From Ehretia macrophylla (taxonomy: Eukaryota > Streptophyta > Magnoliopsida > Boraginales > Ehretiaceae): 64,000 nucleotides of DNA. Position 1 is the first letter of the stretch; each line of letters begins with the position of its first letter. The position numbers and the translations under genes are program-made. A model generated the notes under the pieces. That model was not told the DNA's origin. It saw only the letters and a list, made by a program, of their open reading frames with translations, and ran no database searches. Of this stretch, positions 5,031 to 61,874 are shown one piece after another. The stretch covers positions 19,050,840 to 19,114,839 of the forward strand of contig CM075767.1 of NCBI GenBank assembly GCA_037974665.1, given 5' to 3'.

Positions 5031-5461
5031 CAAGTGGGAGACTGTTTGAATTTTTTAAATTATGGGTTACTACTGATTGGGTATTTTTTTATTTTCGAAA
5101 AACGGGTTGAGGTTGATCGGTAAAGCCCAAAGCATAATTTATAGTGATCTACTCCAGTTGGCCTAGGTCCGACTCTTGAATATTATTTTATTTAGTGGTA
5201 TGGTATGTAATGTGCAGAGCCTGTTTTAATATTAAGGTATCTTGATAGAAGATGTAATACAGTTTTTAGGCTAGGCCCTTTCTCCCAACCAGAATACTGA
5301 TAATCTATAAATAATAGGCTATCAGGGTTGGCATGCCCCATTGAGAGCCACCATATAGAAGTTGGAGGGGAGAGGGATTACCTAGTCTAGGCATGTCTAC
5401 CATAACACGTCGCTCAAGTTTTCATGCAGGATTATGGTTTCTTTAGGAAATTCCTGCAACA
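5031..5461 (+). mobile_element. Probable copia-type 3' LTR remnant with PPT
   Basis: A purine tract (AAGTGGGAGAC) is followed at 5043 by TGTTTGAA, the usual arrangement at the 3' end of plant copia elements. A TATA-like box (CTATAAATAA) lies near 5305-5316, as expected in an LTR promoter. The sequence can be read as an LTR ending at ...CCTGCAACA (5461). No matching 5' LTR is present, so the right border is a guess. Fossil. Confidence 0.45.
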
Positions 5462-5628
5462 AATAAATGTGCATGACATGGATTAACGATATGTTTCAAA
5501 TCTCAAGATTGATATGTAGTTTCAATGGCTTCATATAAAGGTACAGTTTCGATTTAATCAACTTAATTATATTAATTGCAGTAGTGTTTTATTTTATGAT
5601 ATTAGATTCTTTAATTTTAACAGTAAAT

Positions 5629-19549: not shown

Positions 19550-21258
19550 CTAAAAACGAAAAAGGTTATTTGTAACATGATAGGATGAACTCGAAGACTC
19601 GTTATCATTTTGGGAGCTGAAAATTTGGCCGATTCTGCTAGTTCCAATGAATCCATATCCCATACTACCAATAGTATTGTCATAGCCTACACCACTGCCA
19701 TTAACATTTCCATACGCAGTACCTTCAAAGGAAAAATTTTGGTTCGTTTGGCTATAATTATTTGAGCCATTAAAAAGGTTAGACGTATCATACGTTCGAG
19801 GATTGCGTTGTTTTTGACATGTGTTAGCTTGACGTCCAATTCTCCTACAATGTTTTAGCAATAATTAGTAAAACTCATAAATATATATACTTTTTTGGTG
19901 CAATGTGCCTTAAAATAATTTAATTGATGAATTATGTACCGGCATTTCGAACAATGTCTCGGTGCTTATTTGATCTAGGACTTCATCCTTCCTTTAGGCC
20001 ATGCAATTTGGGGATTTTTCTCATCAAATTGGGAAGATTGTGACAAATCGAGCTCGGTATTGTTTTCGTTCAACTCCATCATCCACAATTCCTTGGCACG
20101 AGTCGTTAGTTTTAAAACACCTTCATTCACCTCTTTATAACCTTGCTTCGTCTTTTTTCCATAAAAATTCATTTGAGTTGACTTCAATGTAAGGTCCCTG
20201 TGCCTTGCAATCTCAACTTCGTTGGTGGAAGAAGTTTTCAAACTTTTTTCGCGAAGGTCTTTACTTACCTCCGTGGACCAACGTTTATTTATGCAAGTTG
20301 ATGGGATCTCACCAAGGCCTTTGCATTTCATCACATATATCAAGTGCTTGCATGGTATCCCAGTAGACTCAAATATCAAACAATCACATGCGATGTCTAA
20401 AGTAACTGTGTTAAATGTCACAAAATGTAACAAACCTTGTAAGTGGCATCGAATATTAAAACATCGCCAAATACTTCAAACTCTTCCCTCAACTGCCCGT
20501 CGGTCCTGAACAACTTGTCCAATCGATTATTCTCGTCAACTGTGTACTGAAAATAGAAGAACGGATTAGAATCCATTTTACCATGCAAATACCCTAATAC
20601 AACATTGGCATCACCTATGGTAATTTCTGCTCGCTTGTCATGATCCATCATATTGTAAAGATCTTTCCTAGCGAATCCAACGCCATCATACCTACCTGCC
20701 TTTTGTGTGAATAGATCATACGTTCGACTGGAGCTTATTCCCACACGATTAAGAGAATGAGCTTGATCCCTATGACCATCATCTACACGTCGATGAGAAC
20801 GGAGCATTGGGACGCCGTAGCTAGGATCTAATTCATGATTGTGTTCCTTCACAAATTTGGTCACCTTGTAACAACTACGGATTCTATTCAACTTGATCCG
20901 AATTTGTGCTTTACAATCACATTTTGTCAAGCCCCTATGTTCCCGTTGTCGGTTTCACCTCTATGAACTCCTTCCTTCGCAAACTGGCACAAGAGCATGT
21001 GAACAATCTGACCACTATTTGATCACTGTTGTCTTTTTTATCGTCCACCTTCTAATGCTAAAACCATGCATGCGGGCATATTGATTGTAGAATAAATATG
21101 CTTCATTTTTCGGACTGAAAAATACGAGTAATGATGTCTTCTTCACTTAAATCCTTTAAATTCTCTACCTCATCATCATCAAGTGCTGGAATATTATCAT
21201 CACTGTCTGATTCTGTATTTTCGTGTATAGGCTCGTTGGTGTTCAGTTTTCCAAATGC
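19550..21258 (-). pseudogene. FAR1/FHY3-related (MULE-derived) gene, core deleted
   Basis: Minus-strand pieces appear in the order of a FAR1-type protein. First comes an acidic leader (about 21258-21110) and a disrupted FAR1 DNA-binding domain start. Next is the zinc-binding part CDCKAQIRIKLN...VKEHNHEL (20925-20830), then the first strand of the MULE DDE domain (DVLIFDATYK, about 20440). A SWIM zinc finger (CDCLIF...GIPCKHL, about 20385-20320) follows. Last is a Cys-rich C-terminus (RHCSKCR, then an intron, then RRIGRQANTC, 19945-19800). The transposase core between DATYK and the SWIM finger, normally a few hundred residues, is missing. Frames shift near 21080, 20930 and 19975. It is either a decayed FAR1-family host gene or a dead MULE; no terminal inverted repeats were found. 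Confidence 0.8.
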
Positions 21259-26292: not shown

Positions 26293-29200
26293 TCACTTAT
26301 TTCGAGGCTTTGAAGTAAGTTTGGTGAGCACCGCCATGCAAACGAACGCTGCCAAAAGGATACCAGTCGCAACATTCCCCCTGTCCAAGAACTTGCGGGC
26401 CTTTGATCGGGCCTCATCTAATCCTGTTAGCTCCAAAAGTTGAAGGAGATCAAAGATGGCGTTGATAAATCTTTTAAATTCAAAACTCACACCAAAGCCG
26501 ACACCAACTCCTGTTGCCAAAAGGAAGCTGATAATCTGCCAAAAGAAACGTTGATTAAATACAATGGGTTATGAAGTAAGGGATCATGACATATATATTT
26601 GGAATATATTCTATTTTAAGCGAGCTAAAAAAGTACTATATTGTTTAATTTTCTGTACATGTGCCCTTTTGCTATGCTTTTTGTTAGACAAAGTAATAAA
26701 TGTTGATTGAATGTAATGCAATCCTGCCTATCTCCTCCCCCACCGGATTTGACCTTAATTGCTTCTGCAAATGAGTCAACGGATACTACTCAAAAATTAC
26801 CCATATAATATCATGAAAGGAAATGGGATATTTGAGAAAACGGGTTGGGAACCATTGAACGGCTAGCTACCTGACACTCTCATTTATAACGTTATGAGTT
26901 TATAAGAGAGATTGACGGTGGTAAGTGATAATACAATTTTTGATCTCCACTCTTAATGATGAAATGATATCTATTTAAAGGACTTCCATAGATATCTATT
27001 TAACCCAAAATTTGTTTTTAAGACATGTTACAATACAAAACTCCTCGATAACAATGTTTAAAATTAGGTCACAACTGTGATACACAATAATTGTCGTAAA
27101 TATTGCAAGAGATTAATTAGAGTAAGGATTTCCAAACCTTGTCTCCGTAGAAATCGAACTCTTGTGGAAACCGGCTATTACGAATCAACCTCTTCTCCTT
27201 CATTGCATGGTAGAAAGCGAAAGGAATTTGGACCAATGTGTACAAGAATCCAATGGCGGCAGTTGCGAGGACATACCTATAAACACATCAATGAAATTGA
27301 AAGATCCTTCAATTATCGTTTAAAAGACTAATATTACCTCCACTTAAAATAAATGATCAAATTTGTGCCACTGCTACCTCATTACCCATTTATACTTAAA
27401 GTCAAAATGATGCAGTTTTGTAGAAAAAAAAAAAAATTATCTAAAAATAAGATATATCACATCCACTTAATTTGTGACGATAATCTATAACTATTTCCAA
27501 AATTTCATTTTGTTCCATTAGTCTTGAATATTTTATGACAACCAAAATCACATTTTAAATAAAGCTAAGCTATTAGAGCTATTGCTGATGACAAAGACAA
27601 ACATGTTTAAGCGCCAATCAACACATTCGTTTATTGCAAAACGCCAAATAAATTCAAGTGTTCGTTATTATTAATTGTAGAACAACGTTTTAGCCCTTCA
27701 ACTTGTCGGGGCTGTTGGGTATCGGCATAGCGGAATGGTCGGGGACAAGCAGTATCACGCAACTAAAATATGAATGAGAACAGAGAAAGTAGAGACACAA
27801 GGTTTATGTGGAAAACCCTCAAACAAATCAAGGGAAAAACCACGGGAAAGTAATTGAGGATTTCACTATGATGTGGAGTATTTTACAATAACCTTCTCTC
27901 TAATATAAGGAGAGAACAATATCACTCTCTCAAATAATAGGAGAAACTAACTCCCACTCACAAATACAGAACAACAAAAGAGGAAGAAAACTACTCAAGA
28001 GAAAGCTTATGTTTTCTCTCTAATTTACTATGCTTGGATGATGCTAAATGGTAAGGAATGAGCTTCTATTTATAGGCTCATTCTATACCCAAAATCAAAG
28101 CAAAATAGTAGTGTGAAAATGATTTTTATGTGCCTAATTTTGCACCAAACTTTGATGCATAAATCTTCCTTTCCCATTGCCTTTTGTTTTCTTTTGACCA
28201 AATGCTCAAAGTGATCTTTAACTAACTCACATTCTCCCACTTAAAGCTTACTTTGGATGATCTTCAAATCTCTCCATACTTGTCAATTCCATGTTTCTTA
28301 CGTTTCTGCTAGGCCACAAGAGGATCTACTCCAAATAAACTTATCAACGTTGATTGGTTTTGTCATGACATCTGCTAGGTTCTCGTTGGTGTGAATCTTC
28401 TGCATATCTACACTCCCTTCTTCCTCTACTTCACGAACAAAGTGATATTGAACACCTATGTGTTTCGTCCTGGAATGAAAGGCTGGATTTCTTGCAATGT
28501 GCAGGCACTCTGACTGTCACAAAACAAGGAAATTTACTCTTGTTTGTGCCCGAGCTCCTCCATTAACCGTTTAATCCAGATTGCTTCTTTACAAGCTTGT
28601 GTAGCTGCCATGTATTCAGCCTCTATTGTAGATAGGGCCACAACAGTCTGTAATTTAGATATCCAGCTTACCACGCCGCCTGCAACTGTAAACACATAGC
28701 CTGTAGTGGACTTCCGTTTATCAGTATCACCTACAAAATCAGAATCAACAAAACCCTTGACAATAAATTCTGATCCATCAAAACATAATGCAACATCTGA
28801 GGTCCCTTTGATGTATCGTAGGATCCTCTTAACAGTATTCCAATGCTCTCTACCAAGATTTTCCATGAACCGACTGACCGCACCAACTGCTTGAGCAATA
28901 TCTGGTCTCGTACATATCATAGCGAACATGAGACTTCCCACTGCTGATGCATACGGTACTCGAGACATTTCTATCCTCTCCGCTTCAGTGCTAGGACACA
29001 TACTTGAGGATAATTTGTAATTGATAGGAAGCGGGGTCGAGATTTCCTTGCAATCTTGCATATTGAAGCGCCGCAAGATTTTCTTCAAGTAATTCTTCTG
29101 GGAAATCCATACCTTCCTGCCTTCTCTATCTCGGTGAATTTGCATCCCTAAAATCTTGTTTGCTGGTCCCAAATCCTTCATATCAAACTCCCCAGCCAAC

Positions 29201-32200
29201 TGTGCCTTCAGTTCTTGGACCCGATCTTTACTGGGACCTGCTACCAGCATGTCGTCCACGTACAACAGCAGAATGATAAAATCATTATCGCCAAACCTCT
29301 TGTAGTACGTACAATGGTCTGAATTGAGTCTGTTGTACCCAAGGCTAATCACGAAGGAATCAAATCTCTTGTACTAACACCTTGGCGCCTACTTTAAACC
29401 GTATAGAGATTTGGTCAACCTGCAAACCAAGTTTTCTTTTTCTTTCTCAACAAAACCTTCTGGTTGAAGCATGTAAATCTCTTCTTCAAGCTCACCATGA
29501 AGAAAAGCCGTCTTTACATCTAATTGTTCTAGATGTAAGTCTAACACAGCACACATGGCCAAGACTACTCTGATAGTTGTAAGTCTTACCACAGGAGAAA
29601 ATATCTTGTTTAAGTCAATTCCTTCTTTCTGAGCATATCCTTTCACCACCAGTCTTGCACGATATCACTCCACATGGTCATTACCATCTCGCTTGATCTT
29701 GTAGACCCATTTGTTACCAATGGCTTTCCGTCCAGGTGGTAGTGGAACAAGCTACCACATCTTGTTTCTATGTAGAGCTTCAATTTCTTCCTGCATTGCT
29801 GTCATCCACAGGGCAACATCGGGGCTTTTTATAGCCTCGTGAAAGGTAGATGGCTCTCCATCCTCCGTTAGAAGACAGTATGCAGCATTGCTTGCCATGA
29901 CAAAATCTGAATGCCAAGTTGGTCTTGTTGTCTAACGCAATGAACGTCGGACTTCTGTAACCTCCGCATTATCTGGTTCTTGTTCTTCGTGCTCCGGTGT
30001 AGCTTCAAAGGAAGCATTTTCTTGTTCTGACTTATCTTCAATTTGTATTGTAGTAGTCTCCTTTGAAGTGTTGCTGTCGTCTTCACTTTGCAGTTTATCT
30101 TCTGCAAATATGACATCTCTGCTGATGACAACCTTGTGGGTAGTGGAATCCCACAGGCGATACCCCTTAACACCATCAGCATTTCCCAAGAATACACATT
30201 TCCTGGATTTTGGATCCAGCTTTGTTCTTTCTTGGGAACCATACATCACATATGCCGGACACCCAAATACGTGCAAGGTAGAATAATCTACGGGTTTTCC
30301 GATCCACATTTCCATTGGTGTCTTCAACCCAATTGCAGTTGACGGTGACCGATTTATCACGTAACAGGCAGTTCTAGCTGCTTCTGCCCAAAATGATTTG
30401 GCTAGACCTGCAGTTTCCAACATAGCTCTCATTCTTTCAAGAAGAGTTCTGTTCATCCGCTTTGCTACACCATTTTGCTGAGGTGTATGTGCAACAGTAA
30501 ATTGCCTCTGAATACCCTCTTGCTTGCAAAATGCCAAGAAGCTCCCGTCAGTGTATTCTCCTTCGTTGTCCGTCCTCAAACACTTGATCCTTTTCCCGGA
30601 TTCAAGTTCCACCAGCGCTTTGAATGTTTTGAATATTGGAAACACATCTGACTTGTTCTTGATCGGATACACCCACAGTCTCCTAGAGTAATCATCAATA
30701 AATGATACAAAGTATTTGGCTCCTCCTAGGGACAAAACCGGTGATTCCCAAACGTCTGAATGGATCAAGTCTAGAATGTGTTTGCTTCTAGCAGTAAATC
30801 TCCCAAATTTCAATCTATGCTGCTTACTGGTAACACAATGCTCACAGAAAGGTAAGTTTACCGTCTTGAGCCCGGGTAAGAGATTACGTTCAGCGAGAAT
30901 CTTCAAGCCTTATTCTGTCATGTGGCCCAATCTGCGATGCCACATTATAGTTGATTCTTCTTGATCGGCTGATGCAACTGATACATCTGCCTCCTGCAAC
31001 ATATCTCCCAAAAGCATGTATAGATTTACCCCAATCTTTTCTGCCTTTATCACCACAAGCGTTCCTTTGACGACCTTCATGATCCCATCCTCGATATGGG
31101 TCTTGCAGCCAAGGTCATCCAATTGTCCAATGGACAATAGGTTCTTCTTCAAGCCCTTCATGTGTCGTACCCCTTGAATGGTGCGAATGGTACCATCATA
31201 CATTTTAATTTTGACGGTACCGATGCCAGCAATCTCCAAGGCATGATCATTACCCATGTACACAGATCCTCCAGAGACAGGTTCATAGGTGTGGAACCAT
31301 TCTCTACGAGAGGTCATATGCCATGTTGCTCTTGAATCCATTATCCAAGCATCAGTGAGCTCCTTTTTGCCTTTTGATACAGTTGCTGCTTCGCTGTATA
31401 AAATATCTCCATCATCTAGTGCAGTCGCCACACATCCCTGAGAATTTGTCACCTCGGAATTCTTTTTGTTACTCCGACAATCCTTCTTGAAGTGCCCTTT
31501 CTTGCCACAGTTGTAGCATTTGATATTTTTTCTACTCCTTGATTTTGATCTACCATGGTTGTCGCTCCCACTAGTGCCACGTTCCGTTGATCTACCTCTC
31601 AACATTGATAATGCCTCTGCTTGTTGTGAACTTTCGATTCTGTCTTCCTTACTTTTGCGCCTAGATTCCTCTTCCAGAACAGCGGCTGCAACATCATCAA
31701 AAATAACAGAATCTGAAAGAACATTGTTAGTGTAACTAATGATGAGTTGATCATACGAATCAGGTATACTTTGAAGTAGAATTTCTGCACGTTCAAGCTC
31801 CGCTATTTTATGCCCAATTGCAGTCAATTGAGAGAATAACGTATTTAAGGTATTGATGTGATCTGTCACCGATGTGGACTCACTCATCCGAAGGGTATAG
31901 AGTCTTCTCTTCAAGAAAATCTTGTTGTGAAGTGACTTGACCTCATATAGTTTGGTCAGCGCATCCCAAATTTCTTTTGCTGACTTCTTTTCCTCAACGC
32001 TTGACAATACCGAATCTGCCAATGCCAGGTGCAGATTAGCCATAGCGTTGTCATCCATCTCTTTCCACTTGTCGTCCGTCACCTCCGCTGGTCTGTCTCC
32101 AATTGCTGCCAAGCAATTCTCCTTTCTCAAGATTGCCTTCATCTTCAATTTTTCATAGGGAAAAATTTCTCCCGTTGAACTTCTCGATTTCAAAAATTTT

Positions 32201-33335
32201 GCCGTCATAGTATTAACGACGATCTGCTTCGTAACTTGAACCGACTCCCACTATTTCACGTATGCATGAATAGTAATCGTGAACAGTAACCCCGTATGAA
32301 TACCAGTGACCAGTGACCTGTAACCAATGGCTCTGATACCACTGTTGGGTATCGGCGCAGCGGAATGGTCGGGGACAAGCAGTATCACGCAACTAAAATA
32401 TGAATGAGAACAGAGAAAGTAGAGACACAAGATTTACGTGGAAAACCCTCAAACAAATCGAGGGAAAAATCACGGGCAAGTAATGGAGGATTTCACTATG
32501 ATGTGGAGTATTTTACAATAACCTTCTCTCTAATATAAGGAGAGAACAATATCACTCTCTCAAATAATAGGAGAAACTAACTCTCACTCACAAATATAGA
32601 ACAACAAAAGAGGAAGAAAACTACTCAAGAGAAAGCTTATGTTTTCTCTCTAATTTGCTATGCTTGGATGATGCTAAATGGTAAGGAATGAGCTTCTATT
32701 TATAGGCTCATTCTATACCCAAAATCAAAGCAAAATAGTAGTGTGAAAATGATTTTTATGTGCCTAATTTTGCACCAAACTTTGATGCATAAATCTTCCT
32801 TTCCCATTGCCTTTTGTTTTCTTTTGACCAAATGCTCAAAGTGATCTTTAACTAACTCACAGGGGCCAAATGGGGCATAAGAAATTCAAAATGAAAAATC
32901 GGCTGACTAGAGCAAACCAGCAAACAAATTGAATTTGAGAAAGATTACTAGTGTAAAACTTTCCAATTCCAATAGTTAACCTGGATTCGATGTAAACAAG
33001 CACTAATTGAAGAATTAGTGGGTAAAAACAGACTGATAATTGTGAGAATATAGGGACACTCTTGATCCGGATGGCGGAAGATTTCGGACCTCACATTGGG
33101 CACACACATGGAGCCCAGCTCATTGTGAGGTCCGAGCAATCCAAGCATTCAAATCCAAGTATTTTTCGAGAATATATTGTCACCTGTAAGCAATTAGATC
33201 CGTGAACTTCATTTTGGTTCCATCATTAAGCTTGTAGTTGTTTGTAGCTAGAAGCACTATGGAGGCAGCTAGCAGCAATAGAGTGAAGATCCTCACGACA
33301 AGAATTGAATTAATGCGAACATCCTTCGAAGCCAT
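26293..33335 (-). CDS. CASP-like membrane protein (CASPL4D-type), 3 exons, intact
   Basis: The exons are 33184-33335, 27138-27276 and 26293-26535 (152, 139 and 243 nt). All borders are GT/AG, and they join into 177 codons without a stop. Exon 1 starts MASKDVRINSILVVRIFTLL and gives helix 1, ending at TDLIAYR. Exon 2 continues YVLATAAIGFLYTLVQIPFAF (helix 2, with the last residue being the start of the loop) and ends EFDFYGDK. Exon 3 begins IISFLLATGVGVGFG (helix 3) and has a last helix at GILLAAFVCMAVLTKL. Four helices, the Arg in helix 1 and the FYGDK-SxLLATG junction are features of the plant CASP-like (DUF588/UPF0497, MARVEL-related) family, closest to CASPL4D. Such proteins form plasma-membrane scaffolds; the specific role of this one is unknown. 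Intron 1 (5.9 kb) holds a 5.1-kb copia element in the same orientation. Confidence 0.9.
27713..32861 (-). mobile_element. Ty1/copia element (Tork/Tnt1-like), near complete, in CASPL intron 1
   Basis: Two LTRs of 519 bp each (32343-32861 is 5', 27713-28231 is 3'; TGTTGGGTATCGG...ACTCACA) differ at only about 11 positions by eye, roughly 2 percent. This points to insertion about one to two million years ago under usual plant rates. The target duplication GGGGC is intact on both sides (27708-27712, 32862-32866). The primer site (TGGTATCAGAGCC, near 32341) and a polypurine tract (AAGTGGGAGAA, near 28240) are in place. Gag with a CCHC knuckle (CYNCGKKGHFKKDC), protease, integrase, reverse transcriptase (YVDDM) and RNase H occur in copia order from 32208 to 28534. 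The coding part is interrupted a few times (about three or four breaks), so it looks dead but young. Confidence 0.93.
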
Positions 33336-44504: not shown

Positions 44505-47500
44505 TTTACAAATCAGATAGATAAGACTACCAACCAGCTGGCGATATAAAGATGCATCTGGAAGTGGTGTCCCATCCAGGGGGGTAAGGCGGACAGTAGC
44601 ATTAAGATGAGTAGATGCAATCTTGCTATCAGTAAGACCTGCACGAGCCTACAGATCAGAAGAATATTTGGCCTGAGAGAGATAGTAGCCAGCTGAATCA
44701 GATGAGACTTCAATCCCTAGAAAGTAACTTAAAGGACCAAGATCTTTCATCTCAAAGTGGTGACTGAGAAACTGCTTAAGATCAGAAATACCAGCCAAGT
44801 CATCCCCAGTGATAATCATATCATCCACATATAAGATCAACAGAATAATACCAGACTCAGAACGTCGAATAAACAATGCAGAATCATGATTACTCGGAGT
44901 GAAGCCGAAGTCAGTAATAACAGAACTGAATTTAGAAAACCAGGCACGTGGAACTTGCTTGAGACCATACAGAGCACGACGTAAATGACACACCTTATGA
45001 GGAGGATGAGAGTAGCCTGGAGGAGGCTTCATAAAAACTTCTTCAGTAAGGTCACCATTGAGGAAAGCATTTTTAACATCCATCTGGAACAACTTCCACT
45101 GTCTGGTAGCAGCAACAGCAACTAATGTCCGAACAGAGGTGAGACGAGCAACCGGGGCAAATGTCTCCTCATAATCAATCCCATACTCCTGAGTAAAGCC
45201 CTTAGCCACTAATCGAGCCTTATAGCGCTCTATAGAGCCATCAGAGTGAGTCTTGACCTTGTATATCCATTTGCAACCCATGACATTCTTTCCCGATGGT
45301 AGATCAACCAAATCCCAAGTGTGTTTAGCTTCCAAGGCCTGTAATTCATCTTGCATAGCTTGCTGCCAAAGAGGGTCAGAGCTTGCCTCACGATAAGTTT
45401 GACGCTCATGGAGAGAAAGAATGGTAGAAAAACAATGATAATCAAGAAGGTGATGAGCGATAGCTCTTACACGTGTAGACCGTCGGAGTGAGAGATCAGG
45501 AGAGTCATGGGGCTCAGCATCATGCACAGGACCATCAGATGGTGCAGTCTCTTCAGGATGAGGCACGTCAGGGGTAGCGCTGGTGCTTGTACTAGAACCT
45601 GTGTCATTGTCATCAGGAGGAAATAAGGGAAGAGAGGGATCTGTGAAGTCCGGGGTAGAGACAGCATGAGAAAGAGAGAATGACGAGAGTGATGAGAACA
45701 TTTTATTTTCCCAAAAGATCACGTGACGAGATATACGGAGACGTTTAGAAAGAGGATCCCAATACCGAAAACCCTTATGCTCAATACCGTAACCTAAGAA
45801 GCAACATAACCGAGCTCGAGGCTCAAGCTTTGTACGTTCATGTTGGGGAAGGGAGACAAAACATGCACAACCAAAGACCTTAAGATAATCATACTCTGGG
45901 GAACAACCATACAATCGTTTGAAAGGAGTGAGATTATCAATAGTGGGAGAGGGTAAACGGTTAATAACATGCACAACAGTGAGAACAGCTTCACCCCAGA
46001 AGTGCTCAGGACACGATGAAGAGATAAGGAATGTGCGAGTAGTATCAAGAATGTGTCTATGTTTTCGTTCAACACGCCCGTTTTGTTGTGAAGTGTAAGG
46101 GCAAGAGCGATGTGAGACAATGCCATGTTGACGCAAAAGAGCAAGTATAATGGACTCTTGATACTCCATAGTATTGTCAGCACGAAGGATCTTTATGCGC
46201 TGATTGAAATGAATGTGAATCATAGCAGTGAATTTAGAATATATGCGTGGCAAGTCAGATCGATGATGCATAAGATATATCCATGTAAAACGAGAATGAT
46301 CATCCACAAAAATGACAAAGTATCGAGATCTCCCCATGGTAGAAGTAGGGGAAGGGCCCCAAATATCAGAGTGAACTAAATCAAAACATGCAGAGGATAA
46401 GGAATCACTTTTATTAAATGGCAAAGCATACTGTTTTCCAAGTTGACAAGATAAACATTCAAAGTTGTGGACAACAAGTTTTCCTAACGAGCCTCTAGAA
46501 ACTAAAGATTGTAATTTGCCTAAAGAAGCATGACCTAAACGAGAATTCCATAGGTGAAGAGAGGTAGAGCCTGATAAAGTAGTACCGGAAGCGACAGTAG
46601 AGAGATGAGAGGGAAGATGTAGGCTGACAAGCTCGAACAAACGCCTAACCTTATGGCCGATCCCAAGAAGCTGTCCCGTCTAAGGGTCCTGTACACAACA
46701 ACCAGAAGAAAAAAAAATGACAGTCAGACCAAGGTCACATAGTTGACCAACAGAGATAAGGCTAAGAATAAGTTTTGGAACAAGATAAGTATCACGAAAT
46801 GAGGCATGAGATGTAGATACAGTGCCGATATGACTGATGGGCATGGATGTACCATCAGCGGTGTAAATGGCAAATGCAGATGAATTGACAACTTTATGGG
46901 TCAAGCTATGGGAGCCATAGGTCATGTGATTCAAATAAGCAGAATCAAAAAACCATGAGGACTTACCGGAAGTGACTGAGAAAGCAGTGGAAGAAGGAGA
47001 GCCACACTGGGCTAAAACCTGTTTAAGAATATCTTGAAGGTCGGCAACAGAGATAGAGGAGGTAGATGGATCATTGAGAGAAGCAGAGGAACCTTCAGTT
47101 ATGGCAGCAGAATGTGATAGCAGTATTGACGAATTGTGGGCCTTGGAAGAACCACCCTTGGGCCGATTACCCTGAGAATTCCTGTTGGGGTTGTGATAAC
47201 ACTCTTGTTGTTAATGACCAAGACCTGTTTTCTTGCAAAAAGAACATATCTGAGTGGAGCAGTGTAAGAGAAGATGACCAGGAAGATGACAATACTTGCA
47301 TTCAATTGAGGAGGCTGAATTTTTATTGGATGTAATGTTGGGAGTTGCAAGTACTACATCAGTTGAGCAAGATCTTCGAGATTGAAGACGGGTCTCTTCT
47401 GAAATAAGCTCTTGGACTGCTTGTTCAAGTGTAGGAAATTGACTACGATGAAGGAGAGAGGCATGAACAGGCTCGAAATCATCATGAAGGGCCATGAGAA

Positions 47501-48772
47501 ATTGGACAAGACGTCCACGATCACACCAAGTATTGAATTTGTTAGCATCTGCAGCACAATCCCAGGCAGGCTTGGAAGTCGTGAGTTGATCCCAAACTGC
47601 ATACATCTGAGATAAAAATGTGGTAATTGATTGACCGGCTTCTTGACGGATGTAATGAAGAGCAGTGGCAAGTTGATATTGATGTGCTCCATCAGCAGCG
47701 GTGTATCTCTGTGCTAGAAAGTCCCAAACTTGTTTTTTGTATCAAAACGCCCAAACTGTAGACTGATAGAGGTAACAGATGTGTTTCGCAGCCAAGTGAT
47801 AATTTGATGATTCTTGCTATCCCAATCCTCAAGGCGTTCGGCAAATTTTGCATCGGATTCATCAGATTTTTTTGTTGGTTCTTTGACATCCCCTGTTATG
47901 ATCCGCCATAATTTTCGACCCTTAAGAAAGCTAGTCATGGCCTGAGCCCATGGTATATAATTTCCACCATCAAGAAGCAAATAGATAGGTTGTGAAACAT
48001 CTGATCGTTCCATTATGATGGCCAAAAGTGATATTTAGAGTGAGAATTTGGAGAAACGGACTGCAAAAATGAACTCAGGACATCGAAAAACGTGGGGAAG
48101 GGTCTGGTCATTTTTTTTTTTTTTTGAAGTCCGCTGACGTGGCAGAAGGCTGAGCTGGCGAATGACTGGACGCAGACAGATGATGTCAGCGCTGACTGGA
48201 TGGCTGATGTGTGCAAGGCTAATGTCAGCTGATGTCAGCAAGGGGCTGTATGGTAGATAGAAAATAGAAAATCAAAAGACAGCGATGACGGAACTTCGGG
48301 AGGGGCGTGAGGGCGCGTCTGGTGTCCGTTTGCGGCGATTTTTGGACTGTTGGACTCCTTACGACGAGCTCTACGATATGATGTGGCGCGTGGCCCGAGG
48401 TAGTGAAAATAAAATATCAAAAAGACCCGAAACAGACCGACTGAATATGATTTTTACGATGTTTGATTGCAAAAATTTGCGACAAGAGAGAAGACACGAT
48501 GACAGTGGCACAGGCTACCAAGATGGTAGCTCTGATACCATGTCGAACGAGAAGAGAGACATGTTTACAAAAAACTGTATGTATTGATATTAAGAGAAAA
48601 GTGATACAACAATTACAATAGGTGGCTCAATAAATAGGGGTTAGACTACTTGCTTCCTAAGTTAGGCTAAATATGGTAAACCTAAATATGGTACACCTAG
48701 AATAAAAAAATAATTTACAATATATACGTTAACATATAGAGCGATTGTTATATTTATTTATTATATTCAACA
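44505..48772 (-). mobile_element. Ty1/copia element, 3' truncated
   Basis: The 5' LTR is at 48541-48772 (232 bp; on the minus strand TGTTGAATATAAT...CGTTCGACA), followed by a perfect primer site (TGGTATCAGAGC, 48529-48540). Gag starts at 48025, with a zinc-knuckle region near 47300. Protease-like sequence lies near 46930. A 663-codon frame (46640-44649) then covers integrase and most of reverse transcriptase (YVDDMI). The similarity ends at GSLIYL near 44510, so RNase H and the 3' LTR are absent. It is a broken fossil with a few interruptions and a long open pol section, so not very old. It lies about 330 bp upstream of the first surviving exon of the TPS pseudogene. Confidence 0.9.
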
Positions 48773-51040: not shown

Positions 51041-53101
51041 TTGTAATAGAAGGGTTTATTATATTTATTTATTAACTCAACAAATTATATATGTAAATTC
51101 TGTGATTTTTTCTAACTTTTAGGTGGTGGAAAGCTTTGGATGTAGCAAAGAATTTTGCTTTTGCGAGAGACAGATTGGTAGAATGCTACTTTTGGATTTT
51201 GGGAGTATACTTTGAACCTGAATACTCTCTTGGTAGGAAGATAACAACCAAAATAATTGCTTTGGGTTCCATTATGGATGACATTTATGATGTATATGGA
51301 ACCATTGACGAGCTTCAACTCCTCACGGATGCGATCGAGAGGTTAAATTGAAACCTTATCACCGTAATTCTTTTTGTTTCTCTTTAATTTTGTCGAGCGT
51401 GTTTAAAATATTTTTTTACCCCTATCTCTCTAAGATTTGAATATTGGTCTTCTAACTATCATGAATCTCAAGCGTGTTCAAACGTGTGTGTGTGTTGCGT
51501 GTTTAAAACTTTTTATTAATGGTGTTTAAGTAGTTGTAAGAACTAAAATTAGAGAAAATGTAGACGCTAATTGGGGACAAAATGATTTGATAGACGACAA
51601 TAGATCTCTGAGTATTTTAAACCATTTTGCGAGTTCAATAGAGATTACACGTCTTGCAACCCAAAAAAAAAATCCGACCCTACTTATAGAACTATTGTTC
51701 AATTCAATACTCAAACTACAATGCTTAAGATGTATTGTATTGACGTACAGGTGGGAAATTTCTGCCATAGATCAACTGCCATCTTACATGAGACTATTAT
51801 CAGGCCCTTATAGATGTATATATAGAAATAGAAGAAGAGATGGCTAAGGAAGGCAGATCATATCGAACTCACTATGCCATAACTGAGGTCAACCTCAAAC
51901 TTAAAATCTCTTTTACAAGTCATCATCCTCATATATAAAGCCATCACTCAACTACATTTATTTAATCAATTTGGTGAATTTTTGCAGATGAAAAAGTTAA
52001 ACCAAGCGTATTTTCAAGAGGCTAAATGGTGTCATGAGAGCTATATTCCATCATTCGAGGAGTATATGAAAGTTGCACTTGTAACAGCGTCTTACATGAT
52101 GCTTGCAACAGCTTCATTTGTTGGCATGGGAGAGATAGTGACTAAAGAGGCCCTCGATTGGGTGTCGAATGAACCCTTAATTGTTATGGCTGTCTCAATA
52201 GCTTGTAGGTTAATGGACGACCCGGTCACACACGAGGTAAAAGTGATTTTTTTTTTTTTTTTATATTCTTCACTTCTTCTACAAAGAGCTAAAATAAGAC
52301 AAAAAAAAATAGCTAGAGCTGGATCTGCTGAACAAATATACAATGAAGTGTTATTGTGACTTAGATTCTTAAAGTTCTAATATGATAAAGAGGAAAAATG
52401 TTTGGAATGAAATGCAAACAAGTAGGGTAGATAGGGTCGATCCAAGATTTTTGTCAATTAAAACTAATAACAAATTAAAAAATTAATATTTTTTTACAAA
52501 TAATTTGTTCATACGGACTAAATTAATCTTTTACACTAAACATATCTTAAAGATACACATTTTTAGAAAATGAGGACACATATATTCTTTGTGTTGTAGG
52601 GCTTAACTCTTATCCTCATTGACCCCACAAATGCTTTAAAATACTTATGTTTTTAATTTAATCAATTAATTTATCTCCACTTAGCTCTAACATCTTCACT
52701 AAATTGAATTTCCAAACCTACTTAATCTTTTCGACAAAAAAAAATTCTAATTTTACATTTCCAATCAAAACAACATAAATATTTTTGATTTCTAACACTG
52801 ATTTCCCTCATGCAGTTTGAACAGGAAAGAGAACATGTGGCCTCGGCCGTCGAATGTTATATGAATCAATATGGTTCCTCGAAGGAATATGCATACATCG
52901 AGTTCAACGAACAAGTTACCAATGCTTGGAAAGACATAAATGCAGAATGCCTTTATCCCACTCCTGTCCCAATGCCGCTCATGACAAGAATTATCAATTT
53001 GGCTCGTGTAATAAATCTATTATATAAACACAGATTGGTATACTTATTCCAAAACCAAGACAAGTAACAACATTTCCTTAGTGCTCGTTAATCCTATATA
53101 A

Positions 53102-53385
53102 ATTATTTGTGCCCTTAGGAGCTTATCTAGATATCTTTGTTCCAATAAAGTGCAATTTGACCATCCAATTAAAGGATCAACATTCGCAAAAGTCATTGAT
53201 TTCGTAATTCTTGTGGATTTTGGATTAGCGAATAGCATAGGAAAGATAAGCAATGAGAAATTATTTTATATATAGTCCAGAAAAGGTTTTACATTATTCA
53301 ATGCTTGTAACAGTTGCATAACTGCTTAGGCCCCTAACGTATGGGTTACTATTAGGTCCGGTCGGCTGACCCAACAATACTCATG
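53102..53385. other. 3' flank of TPS pseudogene
   Basis: No gene. The first bases are the former 3' UTR of the TPS copy, and the CACTA element starts at 53386. Confidence 0.5.
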
Positions 53386-53934
53386 CACTACAAAAAAAAA
53401 AGTTATTAACGGCAGTTATAATTATTATTCGCCCGTTAAACCTTTCGCAGCGGTTTAGTGAACCACCACTTTCAAAGGCGTCGCTAAAATTATTCACGGC
53501 CGCTAAAATAAACCTTTCGTGGCGGTTTATAAACCGCCGTTAATACCTTTCGCGAAGGTTCATGAAACCGCCGGTAATACATTTCGCGTTGGTTCAAGGA
53601 ACCGCCGCTAATACCTTTTACAAAATTTTAAAAAAAATATATGTGTATAGGGCGACGTTTGGGAAACCGCCGCCCTGTAGCTCATGGGTTTAAAAAAATA
53701 AATAAATATTGTGTAGGCAACGATTTTCGTAACCAAAAAGGAATTGTTGTGGAAAAGAAATTAACCAAGCATTAATACAACATTCCAGGGCAACTCATCT
53801 TGTTACAATAACACTGAAGGATTTCAAAAACAAGTACAACCTCTTAAATTGTCAATCTCATGTGAAATTTAAAATACTAAGATGAGAAAAGTTGTTTGAA
53901 GGTTCAAACAAAATACAAAATGAGATTTTCTTAT

Positions 53935-54051
53935 CCTTCAATACATTCCAAAAGTCTAACAAGGACTCTATGCTGAAATTTAGTAATCAATATAACTTCA
54001 TTCCTGAACTCTTCAACATCTTGACTAGAATTTTTTAAGTCTTTTCACTGC
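53935..54051 (-). pseudogene. Captured receptor-like kinase fragment
   Basis: The minus strand reads AVKRL, then after a one-base frame slip KNSSQDVEEFRNEVILITK, then FQHRVLVRLLECIEG. This is the beta3-alphaC-beta4 part of a plant receptor-like kinase (cysteine-rich or S-domain type, usually AVKRLSKNSGQGVEEFKNEV, followed by LQHRNLVRLLG). It contains the ATP-binding Lys in AVK and the alphaC Glu. Nothing else of the kinase is present, so it is a captured exon piece without activity. Confidence 0.8.
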
Positions 54052-55664
54052 TCCCCTGCATATGTCATATACATAGTAAGATGAGATTTCAGGAAAGATT
54101 TTCTGGGCTTTAGAATCCTAATATCAAGTACAAGTAAAAACATAAAAGGATAACTACAAGTAGAAACATAAAAGGATAACAGAAAGCAAACTCATAAAGA
54201 ATAGGCCAGCAGAGAACCTTTGTAGATAAATTCTAGTTAAAGGAGTTCTGAATATTAGCAATTACCTCAAATTAAAGTCATAGGCAAAATTCTTGAAAGA
54301 CGAGAAATATATGTAACTAGTCTTCGAAAGATGGTAGCAGTTTTCACATTAGATGATTGAATTTTAACAAAATTACTAAACTCCAATTGTCTATAAAAAG
54401 TGATATACATTAGTAGAGAAGATACATTAGCAAGGGAGAAAGTTAATCATGTAAACATGCTTTTATCATTATACGATATATGGGTAAGAGATACCTTTTC
54501 CAGTTTTTGTTGCAAGGTTTTTCACCTCCACTTCTAACTTAGCCATTCCTTACAACAAAAATACACCCAAGAGTTCCAATGAGTACTTAAGTAGTAAAGG
54601 TTTTCAGTAGAAATGTGACAAACATGCATAGATGATACCAAATAGAACAACAAAGCAGAGGATAGTCAACCATAAGACATGGTACAATAATATGATAATG
54701 GAAGATGATTTTTCTTATGTCACACATCACTTTCCAGTATGCAAAAAGCTTTTAGTTCAGCATATAGTATCAAGGAACACATGGCCTTCAAGAGTGAGTT
54801 GGTTTGGCTGCACAATGATCTGAAAAGTTTATGGAGTTGAGGACCTTAGCAATGAAATCCATATTTTTGCGCTGTATCCACATGGCTAAATCTAAATCAC
54901 TGGGGGTATAAATGTACAAGAAGACACATAAGCCAAACTTGGAAGAATGATCACTATAAGTACTGCACAATGCTCAACCATGGTATCAATCAAAAGAATT
55001 AACAACCTACTCCCTGAAAAAAGAAAAAGAGAAGGAACTAAAACTTGTCCCAGCATAATACAACGAAAGAAAAAAAAAATTATTTCTTTCGTAACCCAAT
55101 ACTCCAACACAATTATTTTTCTACTAACAAACTCAATGATACACAATCTTAAAAGTCAAATGATCGGATTATACATGTAACCTATCACCATAATATTTTT
55201 CCCCTACAGTCAGAAAGTTTTCTTAGATTACGAGTTACATTTGCCTGTGCATATGCATGGGGTGAACCCAATGTATGTTAAAAAAAATATTGTATATGAA
55301 ATTATTAACTGAGATATACTTATATTGGTTGGAAGCTTTTTAATTGTAGTTACATTTTTAAATTAATTAGAAAAAAATGTATTAAAATTTAATACAATAA
55401 AAGTCAACCATTATTGATTTTCAACTTCCATTACAAGTTATAGCTAATTACCTCCAAAATCTGGTGATTTGATTAATAACAATGGGAATCAACATCCTAC
55501 ATTACCAATTTACCAAATGAACCATGACCGAGTGACCAAAATATAATGTTTAGGTAACTCTAAGTTAAAATGTCTACTAAACACTTGATAATGTCAAATG
55601 CAGAGGAGTAACAATTGATGTTAATGATAGGATAATATTGTGTGTACTCTTTAAACACTTAGTT
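54052..55664. other. CACTA interior, unassigned; exon-like bits
   Basis: No complete gene. Two minus-strand stretches look exon-like: about 54549-54490 (MAKLEVEVKNLATKTGK with a GT donor after it) and about 54910-54840 (DLDLAMWIQRKNMDFIAK between an AG and a GT). They may come from further captured genes; I cannot name them. Confidence 0.35.
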
Positions 55665-56452
55665 GAGTTATGGATGAGTCATACTCTTTAAAAGAGATGG
55701 ATTCTTCAATATGAACTCCTTCTATTCTTCTTGATCAATGCTTTCATCACCATTAGTATCTGCATCACTGAATGTCAAAGAGGAGAAGAGAAATGTTAAA
55801 CTAAGAAGCTTAGGCATGAAGTCACATGAGACAAAGTTGAGTCAATCTTTATATTATCAACAATCATTTGATCAACCATCTGACAAACCAAGATCTAATT
55901 CATGCAATAGTACTGATACCATCTTTTTCAACTATCCAAATGTAAAAAAAATTAGAACCATGAAACAAACAAAAACATAATATTGACAAGCAATAATCCC
56001 ATATTAGAGTCAATCTTGAGTATAAGAAGAAAAAATTCCACATAAAGAAAATAAAAAAGATAATAAAAAAGGAAAGAAGAACTGCATTTTAAAAATGGAA
56101 AAGGAAAAGGAAAAAAAAAAAAAGAATGGTTCCATGCCAAGAAAAAGTTGCAACTCTTACCTCTTCTCTCTCAATATATCCTATTTTTCTTCGATCATAC
56201 AATTTGAATGCAACTGTCAAGAGAACATCTCTAGTTAAGAGATAAAAGAACTAAAACAAATAATGATATCTTTCATCAAGTAATGATATAAATAGGATCC
56301 TAAACTACTTGGATTGGAACATATGAAGCCAAGTGTTCATTAAATGAAATTTCGTCTACTAATGGTGCATTTGGATGGAATACCCCCAACGAATGGACAA
56401 ATTCTCCAAATTCAATGACTCCATTCTGTTTGTAATCAAACAAATTGAAAAT
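55665..56452 (-). pseudogene. Captured calcineurin B-like (CBL) Ca2+ sensor fragment
   Basis: Four CBL exons follow in order on the minus strand. Exon at 56344-56452 reads [18 protein letters not shown], then [12 protein letters not shown] (EF-hand 2). Exon at 56161-56213 reads VAFKLYDRRKIGYIEREE; it is exactly 53 nt, between an AG and a GT. The piece at about 55925-55853 has MVSVLLHELDLGLSD and, after a frame slip, LIKMIVDN. The last piece, about 55790-55665, reads TFSDADTNGDESIDQEE (EF-hand 4), a stop in place of Trp, then KEFILKNPSLLKSMT. The 109 and 53 nt sizes match CBL genes as I know them. The N-terminal exons are missing. CBLs activate CIPK kinases; this copy is broken. A partial duplicate of the first exon edge recurs near 56567-56600. 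Confidence 0.87.
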
Positions 56453-56680
56453 CTGTATTAAATGTTAATGAGGATATGCATAATCAATAAGGATGATCAA
56501 CTCTGCAAATTTTGAAGTTGTTATATCTGTATTAAATATTAATGAGGATATGCAAAATCAATAATGACTCCATTCTGTTTGTAATCAAACCAATTGAATA
56601 TCTATATTAAATGTTAATGAGGATATGCAAAATCAATAAAGATGATCCACTCTGTAGATTATGAAGGGAAATGAAATGAT
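56450..56680 (+). repeat. Small tandem duplications next to the CBL fragment
   Basis: The phrase TTAATGAGGATATGCA(T/A)AATCAATAA occurs three times (about 56465, 56535 and 56612; overlapping variable copies). One copy carries along a piece of the CBL exon (CCATTCTGTTTGTAATCAAA). Confidence 0.75.
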
Positions 56681-56713
56681 GATAATAAGTCAAAGGCTTT
56701 AATTGTGTTACTT

Positions 56714-56863
56714 TTACATAATTCCACATTCCACGATAGTTCCTTCACAACCTTCTAAAGCAGCCACTGCATTCGAATCAGATTCTTGGTCACTAATATC
56801 TACCACAATATCTATTAGTCGTTGATTTATTTCTTGTATTTCTTCTACAAGTGCATTGTTAGC
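56714..56863 (-). pseudogene. Captured Mediator subunit MED15 fragment
   Basis: After an AG acceptor (TTGCAG) the minus strand reads ANNALVEEIQEINQRLIDIV, then VDISDQESDSNAVAALEGCE and GTIVECGIM, then a stop. This corresponds to the conserved C-terminal region of plant MED15a, which I recall as ANHALLEEIREINQRLIDTV, then VDISDEDVD, then EGGEGTIVKCSF. The family continues well beyond this point, so only one exon piece was taken. MED15 links activators to RNA polymerase II; the fragment has no evident function. Confidence 0.78.
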
Positions 56864-57249
56864 CTGCAACAGATTACACGTCATTTGGTCGCATTTTGGT
56901 GGCCAAATCGAAAAAAAAAATAAAAGATGGCGAAATCAACAACCTTCAATCTCTCTAAAAGTGCATTGTTATCCAAGAATTATAATATTTCAGTCTCTCT
57001 AAAAGATGGCAAAGTAGATAACTGAAAGATCCATAGTGACGCACAGAATGTTCTTTGCTAATTCATGAACCTTCTTTAGAATTACCATGACTTCACCACA
57101 TCACAACCTTCAAATGTGAAATTAACAAACCCCAAAACACATATAAAACACAGAGCCTTAAAGTTACAAGATTGACACCAACTCCCACAAATTTCAAAAC
57201 TTTAGCACAAAAATATACAATTCAATTATCATTGCATTCACGAATATAC

Positions 57250-58560
57250 CTTAGCTCCTTTATAGTTGAGTTCTCGTCAAGCTTTGTCATGTCATCGCTT
57301 ATTTTGGGGGAAGGGGGAAACCAATCCTCCTCGTCCTTATCGTCACATTCAATTACTTGAACCAATTTTACATTATCAACTTCCTTCACAACCTAAAACT
57401 CAAAACCCATCTCTATTTCAATCCAAACCAATCAATAACATTCACAAAAGTTCAAGAAAAATTTGAAAATCAAACACAAGAAAAGAAAAACTTTACATTA
57501 GAATCACTCATTTTCCGCTTCTTCAAAAAAAATACTGGAGAATCATCCAATGAATCATCTACAAAAACCCAAAGAAAAAGGAAAAAGAAACTTATGTGCT
57601 GGTCAATAACTTGAATATGGGGATGAAAACTAGCCAAGTATTAGCATAGATTACTAAAATATTATATCTCCAAGCATAGAAATTACATCTCAATATTACT
57701 AACTTCATGATCAATTAGAAGAATCATAAAAGAAAATGTCCATCTCAGCTAGCCTCCTAAACTTAACCTTAGATAAACCTCCTACTCAACTTTGACTAAA
57801 GCAGGTCTGCTTTTTAATTGTCTGATAGAGCTTTATCTTGACATAAAAACTAGCTGTGCAGATGCATCAGTTTTCAAAAAAGGGTAAAGCTCCGAGCCCA
57901 AACAGCTTACGAGCATCCAGCAAATATCTAATCAAAAACAAACATCTTGACATAGACTATATTCTATAGAAGATAAGCAAGAAAACAGGATAAGTATTCA
58001 TAATTCCTCTCAGAACTGCCACGTATTTATCTATTCTCTGAATTGACTACCTACAAGTAAGCCAATATCACTTTCAGCATTCGAGATAACTTAATCATTT
58101 TGTTCAATGACTTCTGAGCTACTTAGTCATCAAAAAATATGAACACAATAATTTATCTTCCCAATTCCATAAACAAAACCCATGTGCAATTTGGCATAAA
58201 CCAATAGAAAATGTACATTTTCTATTAATGAAGAATGCTAAGCATATAGACGCAAGTTATTCAGCATTTTATATGCCATTCCAAATATAGAATAAGAATT
58301 ACTGTAAGTGTAAGAACATCAAGAAAACTCACCTTGGCAGCAGAACCAGTGTCGTTCTCATCCGCATCAATTAGCTCATCTTTTGGCTCTCTCTTTACAT
58401 TTCCTTCATCAAACCCCCTAGCATTCCTTCCCTCATCAACCTCTATATCCTCATTCCTCACTTTACTATCCACAAACCTCCTCCGTTCCTTCCTCTCCTC
58501 TCAAGTCTCCTTCGCCTCACCATCCTCAAATCTACGTTTCTTTTTCTTCTCTTCTCTCGA
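57250..58560 (-). pseudogene. Captured exons of an unidentified nuclear-type protein
   Basis: Three minus-strand exon-like blocks appear. Block A (about 58560-58334) is very charged: REEKKKKRRFEDGEAKET, a stop, then VDEGRNARGFDEGNVKREPK and DELIDADENDTGSAAK, ending at a good donor (AAG|GTGAGT). Block B (57497-57558) reads DDSLDDSPVFFLKKRKMSDS between AG and GT. Block C (57250-57355) reads IECDDKDEEDWFPPSPKISD and ends STIKELR before GT. The blend of acidic, KKKRR and DEEDWxPP motifs looks like a plant nuclear protein that I cannot name. The three blocks may come from one gene. The frame of A is broken, so no product is expected. Confidence 0.6.
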
Positions 58561-60740
58561 CTTACCATTCTCTTCTTCACAATTATTAATTACATATATA
58601 GCTTATGCAAACACACACACACACACAACTAACACTCACACATATATGCATGGCTGGTTCACACACACGGCCATATAGCTTATGCAAACACACTCATACA
58701 CAAGTCAATTTTATTAGAAACATAAAATTTAACATGACAAACTATGAAACTATGTATCTCCAATGGGTTTCGGTTTAAGAGAATATACAAAGTATGCAAG
58801 TTAGGGTTTCCAATTGAGGGTTTCAATTACTTGAAATTCGAAACCCTCAAGGGTTTCCAATTTCGGGTAAACGAAACCCCCAATTTTGGGGTTTCGATTT
58901 GGAAGCCTATCTCTCCAACGGTTATTATTGACTGTTGGAGAGATGGTCATAATTAAAAAAAAAAACACATCACGGTAGCAATACCGTGGTGGTGGTGGTG
59001 AAGGTGTGTCGAGGTCGTGGTGATGGTGTTGTGGTTGTGGTGATGGTCATGATGGTGCGACGGTCGTGGTAATGGTGTCACGGTTGTAGTGATGGTGTCA
59101 ATTGAGAGAATTAGGGGAGGGGGTGATGGCTTAGAGAATTGGGGAAGGGGGGTGAGATATATTTTTAGGTTAAATTATATATGTATCTAAAGGTTAAAAG
59201 AGTTAAAAATTACATTAACTTATTATTTTTTCTAATTATAGTTTAGTTTTTAATTAATTTTAATTTTAGACTTATTAAATTTGTAAAATTATATTTAAAC
59301 CACGAGTTTTAATTACTTAATTTTAATTTTAAACTTATTAAATTTATAAAATTACATTTATAGTTTAGGTCCCTGAGTTTTTTTAATCTCTTTTGAGGCC
59401 CCTCACAGTTAAAAGTGTTTTTTTAAATAAAAAAAAAATACAGTAAATGCAAAGATCGGGTTGCATCGAAACTAGTCAATGATACTTCTCTCCCATTTTA
59501 CAACAAACTCAGCCATCCAGTCACCTGCCTCATTTCAAAGGATCCTACCTGCACCTGTTGGTCTCCGGTTCTCTTTAGTACATCCGTTAGTGTTTTATTT
59601 TCATCTACCTATCGGGTTCTCCCATCCAATTGATTTTTCAATTTTAATTTTATAGTCATTTCAATATTAGTAAAACAATAAATGAATCACTTTTATTATA
59701 AATATTCCAATATTAATAAAAAATAAAAAAATGTCCATATAAGCATTATATTTAGCGATTGTAAAAAGCATAATTAACTTAATTTAAAAACATAGATATA
59801 TATAAATATATAGTAGATAGGTTAATGAAAAATGTAAAAAAAATACATATAAATTAATGAAAGTTGTTATTAATAAATGAAATATAAAAATAAACAAAAT
59901 GGTTTATATATGGAAAAAATTTAAAATTATTATGATAATTGAGCTCGAACAAAAACTCAATATGAGTTTAAAATAAATCTAGCACAATCTATTTGTTATT
60001 ATTAGTTATTTTTTTTGTTCTAAATCAATCTACTTTCTATGAACATAGATACTTTGTCGCCCTTTTTTCGTAGGCTCAGGGCTATTTTCTTGTAGTGTTA
60101 CTAGAATTGAATAGAATTTAATTAAAAAAAATAGTGTGTAAGAGTTAAGGAAATTGTACTTAAAACACTAATTGAGATTGAATGAAGATAATATATGGGT
60201 TACTAATATTTATAACTATAGAAAATATATATAAATTTGAACAAATACTTAAAAGATAACTAATATGGTTTTAAACTCAACACTTTAATTGAAAGATCAC
60301 TATAATCATCATCACATAATAATTATACTGTTATATGTATTATATTTTAAGTTAAAATCATATTCAAGTATCTTGACTTTTTTATACTAGTTTATAGGAG
60401 GTGGTTTACTCTAAATCTTTTCTTTAATACTAGACATAAGTGGTAATTTTTGCAAGAAGTTGTCATTGAAAGTTTAGTGAAAAATATGAAAAAAACTTAA
60501 TTTTTATACTTGTCAAAAAACCTACTAAAATATATATATTTTTTTTTAAATCATCAATCACTTGTTAACCACTACCCATATTACGGTAGAAAAATAAAAA
60601 TATGTTTTATATTTCATATATATGATAGTAACAATAAAATGCATCTTAACTTATTCCTTACTGCTCCAGTAATTTTTATTTTTTTAAAAAAAGCATATTA
60701 GTTTCATTTTTAAATGAAAATAAATAAATTATAGTACTCC
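58561..60740. other. CACTA interior: CA-repeat, GTG minisatellite, AT-rich DNA
   Basis: A CA microsatellite and a duplicated CATATAGCTTATGCAAACAC phrase (58594 and 58672) are followed by a GGTGGTGATGGT-type minisatellite at about 58985-59101. An approximately 88-bp duplication lies near 59250-59370, and AT-rich DNA follows with no gene. TTTTCTTGTAGTG at 60086-60098 looks like an extra CACTA right end. The block could supply the promoter for a minus-strand chimeric transcript, but I see no clear TATA box tied to an exon. Confidence 0.4.
58985..59101 (+). repeat. GTG-rich minisatellite
   Basis: Imperfect repeats of GGTCGTGGTGATGGTG-like words over about 115 bp. No open frame of note runs through it. 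Confidence 0.8.
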
Positions 60741-61109
60741 TCATAGGCGGCGGTTTTTCTAAACCGCCGCCTATAGCCTAAAATTTAAGGTGGGACTTCA
60801 TCCCGCGTTGATTTAAATACTAGTACCATACTATTAGTGGTGGTTAATGGAAACTGCCACTAAAAGTGTAACACTTTTAGCGACGGTTTCTACCAACCGT
60901 CGCATATAAATGCCATTAGCGGCAGTTATAAGGAACCACCGCTAATAGTGTCCCACTTTTCGCGACGGTTCAACACAACCGTCGCCTATACCCAAGTATT
61001 AGCGGCGGTTTAACGAACTGCAGCAAAAAATGCTGAAAATGCACATTTCGCGGCAGTTCACAAAACCGTCGCAAAAGATGTGTTGCTAATAGAAACTTTT
61101 TTTGTAGTG

Positions 61110-61874
61110 ATAACAATTGGTGAGACCCGCATCAAGTAGGTCCTACTAGAAGAGAGTTATTTAGTTAGTCAGGTTCAAGAATTTTCCACTGAAAGTAAAC
61201 CTTGGTTTTTCAATTTCCAATCTTAGTAGATGCAGTTAAAAATCTCGTTATAGACCCCAATGAAATCTATATCCAAATGGCAGTTTGGCGCTAGAGATGG
61301 AGAAGCAATGCATGATAAATGTAAGCTAACTGAAACTGATCCTTTAAACTGTAAACAGCACTTGCAATAGCTCGAGAGGGATTAAGGTCCACTTTCCGAA
61401 AGAGAGATGAACTTTGAGTTTTCTAGAATTGAGAGTAAAACAAGGCTTTAAGATATTTAGCCGTACCCATTTCTCTAAGTAGCCTTCCGACAAATTTCAA
61501 ATATGAAGATAAACTAGCTGCCAAATCTAGAGCAAGATTGCTCGTCAATAATTATTTGGAAAGAGCTGCCAAATCAAATACTTGTTGGGTTTTTGGCAAG
61601 TTCCAAGCCCAAGTCATGGTGAATACAATTACAAATACAAGTTCAATGAGAGTAAAAATACTTATTCTAATCCTTGTAAGGTTCAAACTGTTAGGATTTG
61701 TCAAAAATAATTAACATATTTATAGTCCCTAATAACGTCAATAATTTTATAAATTTAATCCAAAAGAGACCTAAAACATGTTTCTATAAGTTCTTCAACA
61801 AATCCTAAATTAAACACATGTTACTACCTACTTCAATTCAAGAGAATAAGGAGATGTAGAAAGTAGAAGTGTAC
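61110..61874. other. Intergenic, nothing recognised
   Basis: Right flank of the CACTA element; no feature supported. Confidence 0.35.

Follow-up and report, generated by a model that had tools for sequence, protein, structure and literature searches.

The window, i.e. the whole 64,000-nucleotide stretch of Ehretia macrophylla DNA analysed here (C4:19050840–19114839), contains a composite CACTA element of 7,724 bp (53386–61109), in which a member of one family, denoted A, encloses the remnant of a member of another, denoted B. It is delimited by its TIRs, by a twin copy and by empty sites. Positions marked EL are numbered from window position 53386, and genome-wide counts were taken over 1.58 Gb in 20 contigs. 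Terpene synthase exons (51883–53067; Pfam Terpene_synth_C) end about 320 bp to the left of the element, and sequence related to the flanks recurs over C4:18.0–18.9 Mb, perhaps a duplicated terpene synthase region. Elsewhere in the window, the minus strand has two LTR retrotransposon coding regions (28534–32250 and 44649–47741; 29935–30909 and 44652–46679 were scanned with Pfam), which we take to be Copia-like, and an ORF with a SWIM zinc finger (19975–20475), perhaps a FAR1- or MULE-like protein.

The left end of the element (at 53386) reads CACTACAAAAAAA and the right end, finishing at 61109, reads TTTTTTTGTAGTG; both termini carry CACTACAAAAAAA as TIRs starting with CACTA. The left TIR and its subterminal region (53386–53735, 7.7 CG per 100 bp) contain repeats of the GGCGGTTT type and a 34-bp array at 53512–53618, and the GC-rich motif has positions on the left and on the right side. 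The left part of the A core (53386–55229) is common, wholly or partly, to many A elements, while the right part (60098–61109) includes the subterminal repeats and the right TIR. Genome-wide there are 29 A-type right ends (≤3 mismatches; control 0). In the CACTA superfamily the target-site duplication is 3 bp long. The element is flanked by ATG (53383–53385) and ATA (61110–61112), and its joined flanks match two paralogous empty sites, C4:18496397–18496708 over the full length (91%) and C4:18012760–18012990 in part (85%). The window has CTC-ATG before the element and ATA after it, and both empty sites have CTC-ATA at this place, so the duplication is a 3-bp ATA, of which the left copy was later altered. 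Related elements show perfect 3-bp duplications: TTT for the twin on C11, TTA for an element on C18, AAA for a copy on C1 and TTT for a copy on C6 (C6:55). The CACTA ends and subterminal repeats described by the earlier note are therefore both present, and the insertion is backed by the two empty sites. That note had also described a fragment-carrying CACTA without visible transposase, and no transposase was seen here either: stop-to-stop frames reach at most 142 aa, and none of the nine frames scanned with Pfam, out of 25 element frames of at least 58 aa, matched a transposase. The element would presumably be mobilised in trans by an unseen transposase. Two A-family elements on C11 (~5885188–5906100 and ~6358419–6380500), about 21–22 kb long as judged from their coordinates, are transposase candidates.

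Pieces of four genes lie inside the element, all on the minus strand, as the earlier note had stated. The first is a degenerate exon piece of a receptor-like kinase (53929–54051), which on its own gives a weak Pfam match (E 0.086) and has 76–79% DNA identity to a normal kinase exon at C9:27966337 (79% over 128 bp). A search with the kinase region, in which the best 40 of 58 candidates were scored, returned at least 45 rows, 42 of the 45 at 83–100% identity (including the window itself and one short piece on C9). It is the most widely shared cargo of family A, and probably the oldest. The MED15-like exon with its splice acceptor (56727–56884) matches a locus at C8:79823955 with 80% amino acid and 90% DNA identity; we take this gene to be MED15, and the Pfam and PDB searches gave the MED15-like protein no name or support.

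The CBL-like piece (55230–56666) is a genomic segment that retains introns, with exons at about 55705–55785, 56164–56224 and 56340–56464, which when joined match CBL4 structures (E 3e-16). It is similar to loci on C17, C14 and C16 (87–95% DNA identity piecewise, 89–92% over the main 900 bp, introns included), which are collinear with one another across 2.3–2.5 kb. No A-core or A-end sequence was seen at these three loci; under looser scoring they match AT-rich B sequence weakly (60–68%). Their exon A has small gaps or changes, so the three loci may be related to the captured piece without being its parent. In the window copy, exon C (55705–55785) has an in-frame stop (TAG for TGG) and exon A (56340–56464) has lost its GTAAGT splice donor; the twin is intact at the former and retains the latter. 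Since a copy on C10 has at least 0.57 kb of extra CBL-locus sequence relative to the window copy, the piece as first captured probably extended further.

The fourth piece comes from a gene for a charged protein (57240–58579; exons 58332–58579, 57502–57560 and 57240–57392), to which the Pfam and PDB searches gave no name. EL 4203–5194 (57588–58579) matches C18:23832748–23834334 in three collinear main pieces (96, 92 and 94%), and the match extends into sequence beside the exon; the C18 locus has an ORF of 268 aa. For the exons at 57240–57560, the 17 rows of the genome search included no parent outside the composite elements and B-type places, one row being a 61-bp piece beside a B-type place on C6. 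Opposite the charged exons, a plus-strand frame (57091–57357) matches the Pfam model of a Tenuivirus movement protein (E 0.00035), but its 21.2 bits fall short of the curated threshold of 25, and the match is probably due to chance. Close genomic relatives of three donor loci could thus be found, as the check proposed with the earlier note had called for (CBL-like, MED15-like and charged exon 1), the kinase piece having a relative at 76–79% only.

Internally, the element contains a terminus that the earlier note overlooked. The stretch 56885–60097 is the remnant of a second CACTA element, of family B, whose right terminus (60053–60097) ends in CTCAGGGCTATTTTCTTGTAGTG and is directly followed by TTA (60098–60100), the sole surviving copy of what would be the target-site duplication of B. 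There are 303 B-type right ends genome-wide (≤3 mismatches; reversed control 0), which rules out a chance match. An end-to-end copy of B occurs at C6:36819146–36827018 (7,873 bp); both of its ends are of the B type, and the charged exons lie inside it. The window remnant corresponds to this copy in three segments: EL 3495–3540 to positions 111–155, EL 3585–6680 to positions 2580–5621, and EL 6668–6712 to the last 44 bases (7830–7873). Charged exons occur in further B-type places on C6, C2, C5, C11 and C16. Between 36.8 and 40.2 Mb on C6, at least seven copies of the B segment with the charged gene stand in the same orientation at intervals of 0.2–1.1 Mb, and were perhaps spread by segmental duplication instead of transposition.

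The position of the B end was compared among 14 A elements. Eight are unbroken and read straight through TTTACTAA, four have the B right end immediately preceding TTACTA, and two are too diverged to judge. The B/A junction pattern likewise occurs four times in the genome (≤3 mismatches; control 0), in the window (C4) and on C11, C1 and C6, so that there are four copies of the composite, further copies having been among the checks that the earlier note proposed. The element on C18 has the kinase, CBL and MED15 pieces with no B sequence. The copy on C11 (C11:411822–419547) is a full-length twin spanning EL 1–7724, with 96% identity by BLAST. The main genome search scored the best 40 of 1363 first-look candidates, so repeat counts from such searches are lower bounds, and further copies or donors may exist. 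The left boundary of the B remnant differs between copies. In the window copy, the MED15-like sequence meets B within the subterminal repeats of the latter, at a shared 5-bp GTCAT, while the C1 and C6:55 copies have the same right junction but CBL sequence joined to B near position 2158, the C1 copy with an extra 35-bp piece of B ahead of this join. The simplest reading would be that a single nested ancestor gave rise to two deletion forms, both of which then moved to new sites, with outer duplications AAA (C1), TTT (C6) and TTT (C11).

The internal B end at 60097, the B copy on C6 and the eight unbroken sites among 14 indicate that the charged piece was not captured by A, and that it arrived inside a nested element of family B. 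The earlier note had attributed four captures to a single element; its fragment-carrying CACTA stands, but the charged piece has to be taken out of its count. That one CACTA family successively captured all four pieces through gap repair would account for their lying between one pair of ends with a proven target site, and in one orientation. This is nevertheless very unlikely, as the charged piece is flanked by a B terminus and B subterminal sequence, and is present in an end-to-end B copy elsewhere, while eight of 14 A elements are unbroken at the position of the B end; four independent captures by one family are ruled out by the internal B end together with the C6 copy. An alternative to nesting is the published model for Pack-CACTAs of Arabidopsis, in which related elements insert in tandem and then undergo complementary deletions at their ends (PMC13317346, PMC8903248). 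Here, however, the internal end is from a different family, and the A sequence is continuous over the site in the elements free of B (8/14), making this model extremely unlikely as the source of the composite, though it may explain the earlier captures of A itself. The composite Pack-CACTA was very probably made by nesting of B into A. Several observations go against this explanation: the left TTA copy of B has been lost, leaving its duplication visible on one side only, the end-to-end C6 copy is flanked by TCT and TAC, without a matching duplication, no source of a transposase turned up, and the matches to the charged exons at 57240–57560 include no parent beyond composites and B-type places.

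Comparison of the window copy with its twin reveals an uneven divergence. The ends differ most (12.2% at 53386–53735 and 8.3% at 60726–61109), against 0.8–3.1% elsewhere. The element ends are CG-rich (6–8 CG per 100 bp), and methylation-driven mutation or exchange among family members could be behind their high divergence. Within the interior, a tally of plain site differences gives 18 among 999 for the predicted exons (1.80%) and 110 among 5304 for the other interior DNA (EL 351–6700; 2.07%), with Fisher p = 0.71; a slower change of the captured exons, as would mark an expressed chimeric gene, is therefore rejected.

These figures bear on the proposal of the earlier note that the cargo is transcribed from the right end of the element and that the chimeric transcripts were tolerated or favoured. 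Several splice sites are indeed intact in the window copy (the MED15 acceptor, the donor of charged exon 1 and the donor of CBL exon B), and a CACTA of soybean that holds five fragments gives rise to chimeric transcripts driven by the promoter of its host gene (PMC1947982). That some splice sites remain is as expected from the capture of genomic DNA. Exons and non-exons have diverged equally between the twins, the CBL piece of the window copy has a stop and has lost a splice donor, and a stop in a charged exon is common to the window and the twin. An expressed and selected chimeric gene is thus highly improbable, selection for chimeric transcripts is unsupported, and the cargo would appear to be neutral. 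Nor does the single orientation of the pieces, which had been taken as a signal, carry much weight: four pieces point the same way by chance with a probability of 2 × (1/2)^4 = 0.125 (1 in 8), and the orientation of the charged piece depends only on how B inserted. Orientation as a signal was rejected. The remark that two of the pieces come from signalling genes is unsupported, two being too few for a test and the kinase piece being old and family-wide.

With the composite read as B nested in A, the likely order of events is kinase, MED15, CBL, nested B and internal deletions. Family A, lacking a visible transposase, would first have acquired the kinase exon, next the MED15-like piece, and then, in the probable order, the CBL-like genomic piece. 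MED15 probably preceded CBL, because an A-type sequence at C11:6371k has MED15 but, where CBL sits elsewhere, about 458 bp of other sequence, 56 bp of which recur in three simple A elements; this order comes from a single place, whose outer ends are not joined. B, already holding the charged-gene piece, would then have inserted into A with the target duplication TTA, after which the left end of B and the adjoining part of A would have been lost by internal deletions, with the breakpoint of the window lineage at GTCAT. Gap repair is the presumed cause of both captures and deletions. Because the outer ends of A still worked, the merged unit would have moved as one element.

The case bears on the unsettled question of how Pack elements come to hold fragments from more than one gene. 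In the Ehretia genome, an element of the donor type survives along with the site both before and after insertion and with two deletion forms that arose later, so that the route of nesting followed by joint movement can be read at base level. Second-hand capture by cross-family nesting, end loss and joint spread is put forward tentatively as a route by which multi-gene Pack elements arise in general; if so, relic termini of other families are to be expected within many such elements. It follows in any case that fragment counts within one pair of ends can overstate the captures made by that family, and that a few pieces pointing the same way are no evidence of selection.

Multi-gene Pack-CACTAs are already known, and what is new here is that the passage of cargo from one family to another by nesting can be followed at base level; a literature search among open-licence papers found no example, documented at that level, of nesting having moved CACTA cargo. 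Captured fragments have been described in Chenopodium CACTAs (PMC8978399). Like Tgm-Express1 of soybean, a CACTA of 5.7 kb that contains five fragments of host genes (PMC1947982), the composite carries exon and intron pieces from several unrelated genes. Tgm-Express1 lies within an intron of its host gene, whose transcripts take it in by splicing, and the main text of its description does not use the word “nested” (PMC1947982); unlike it, the Ehretia element received one of its gene pieces via another CACTA family. With the Pack-CACTAs of Arabidopsis and maize it shares CACTA TIRs, target duplications and coding fragments of several loci (PMC8903248, PMC13317346), the most distinct loci being reported for those of maize (PMC8903248). 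The capture model in print for these, as described, is tandem insertion with complementary deletions (PMC13317346), i.e. of related elements, whereas here one piece came by cross-family nesting. A further parallel is found on wheat chromosome 3B, where the CACTA families Vincent and TAT hold the same captured gene, and a recent exchange of DNA between families was inferred by the authors (PMC4290129). No mechanism is given in the passages cited, whereas in Ehretia the unbroken site, the filled site, the internal terminus and the donor-type element are all visible.
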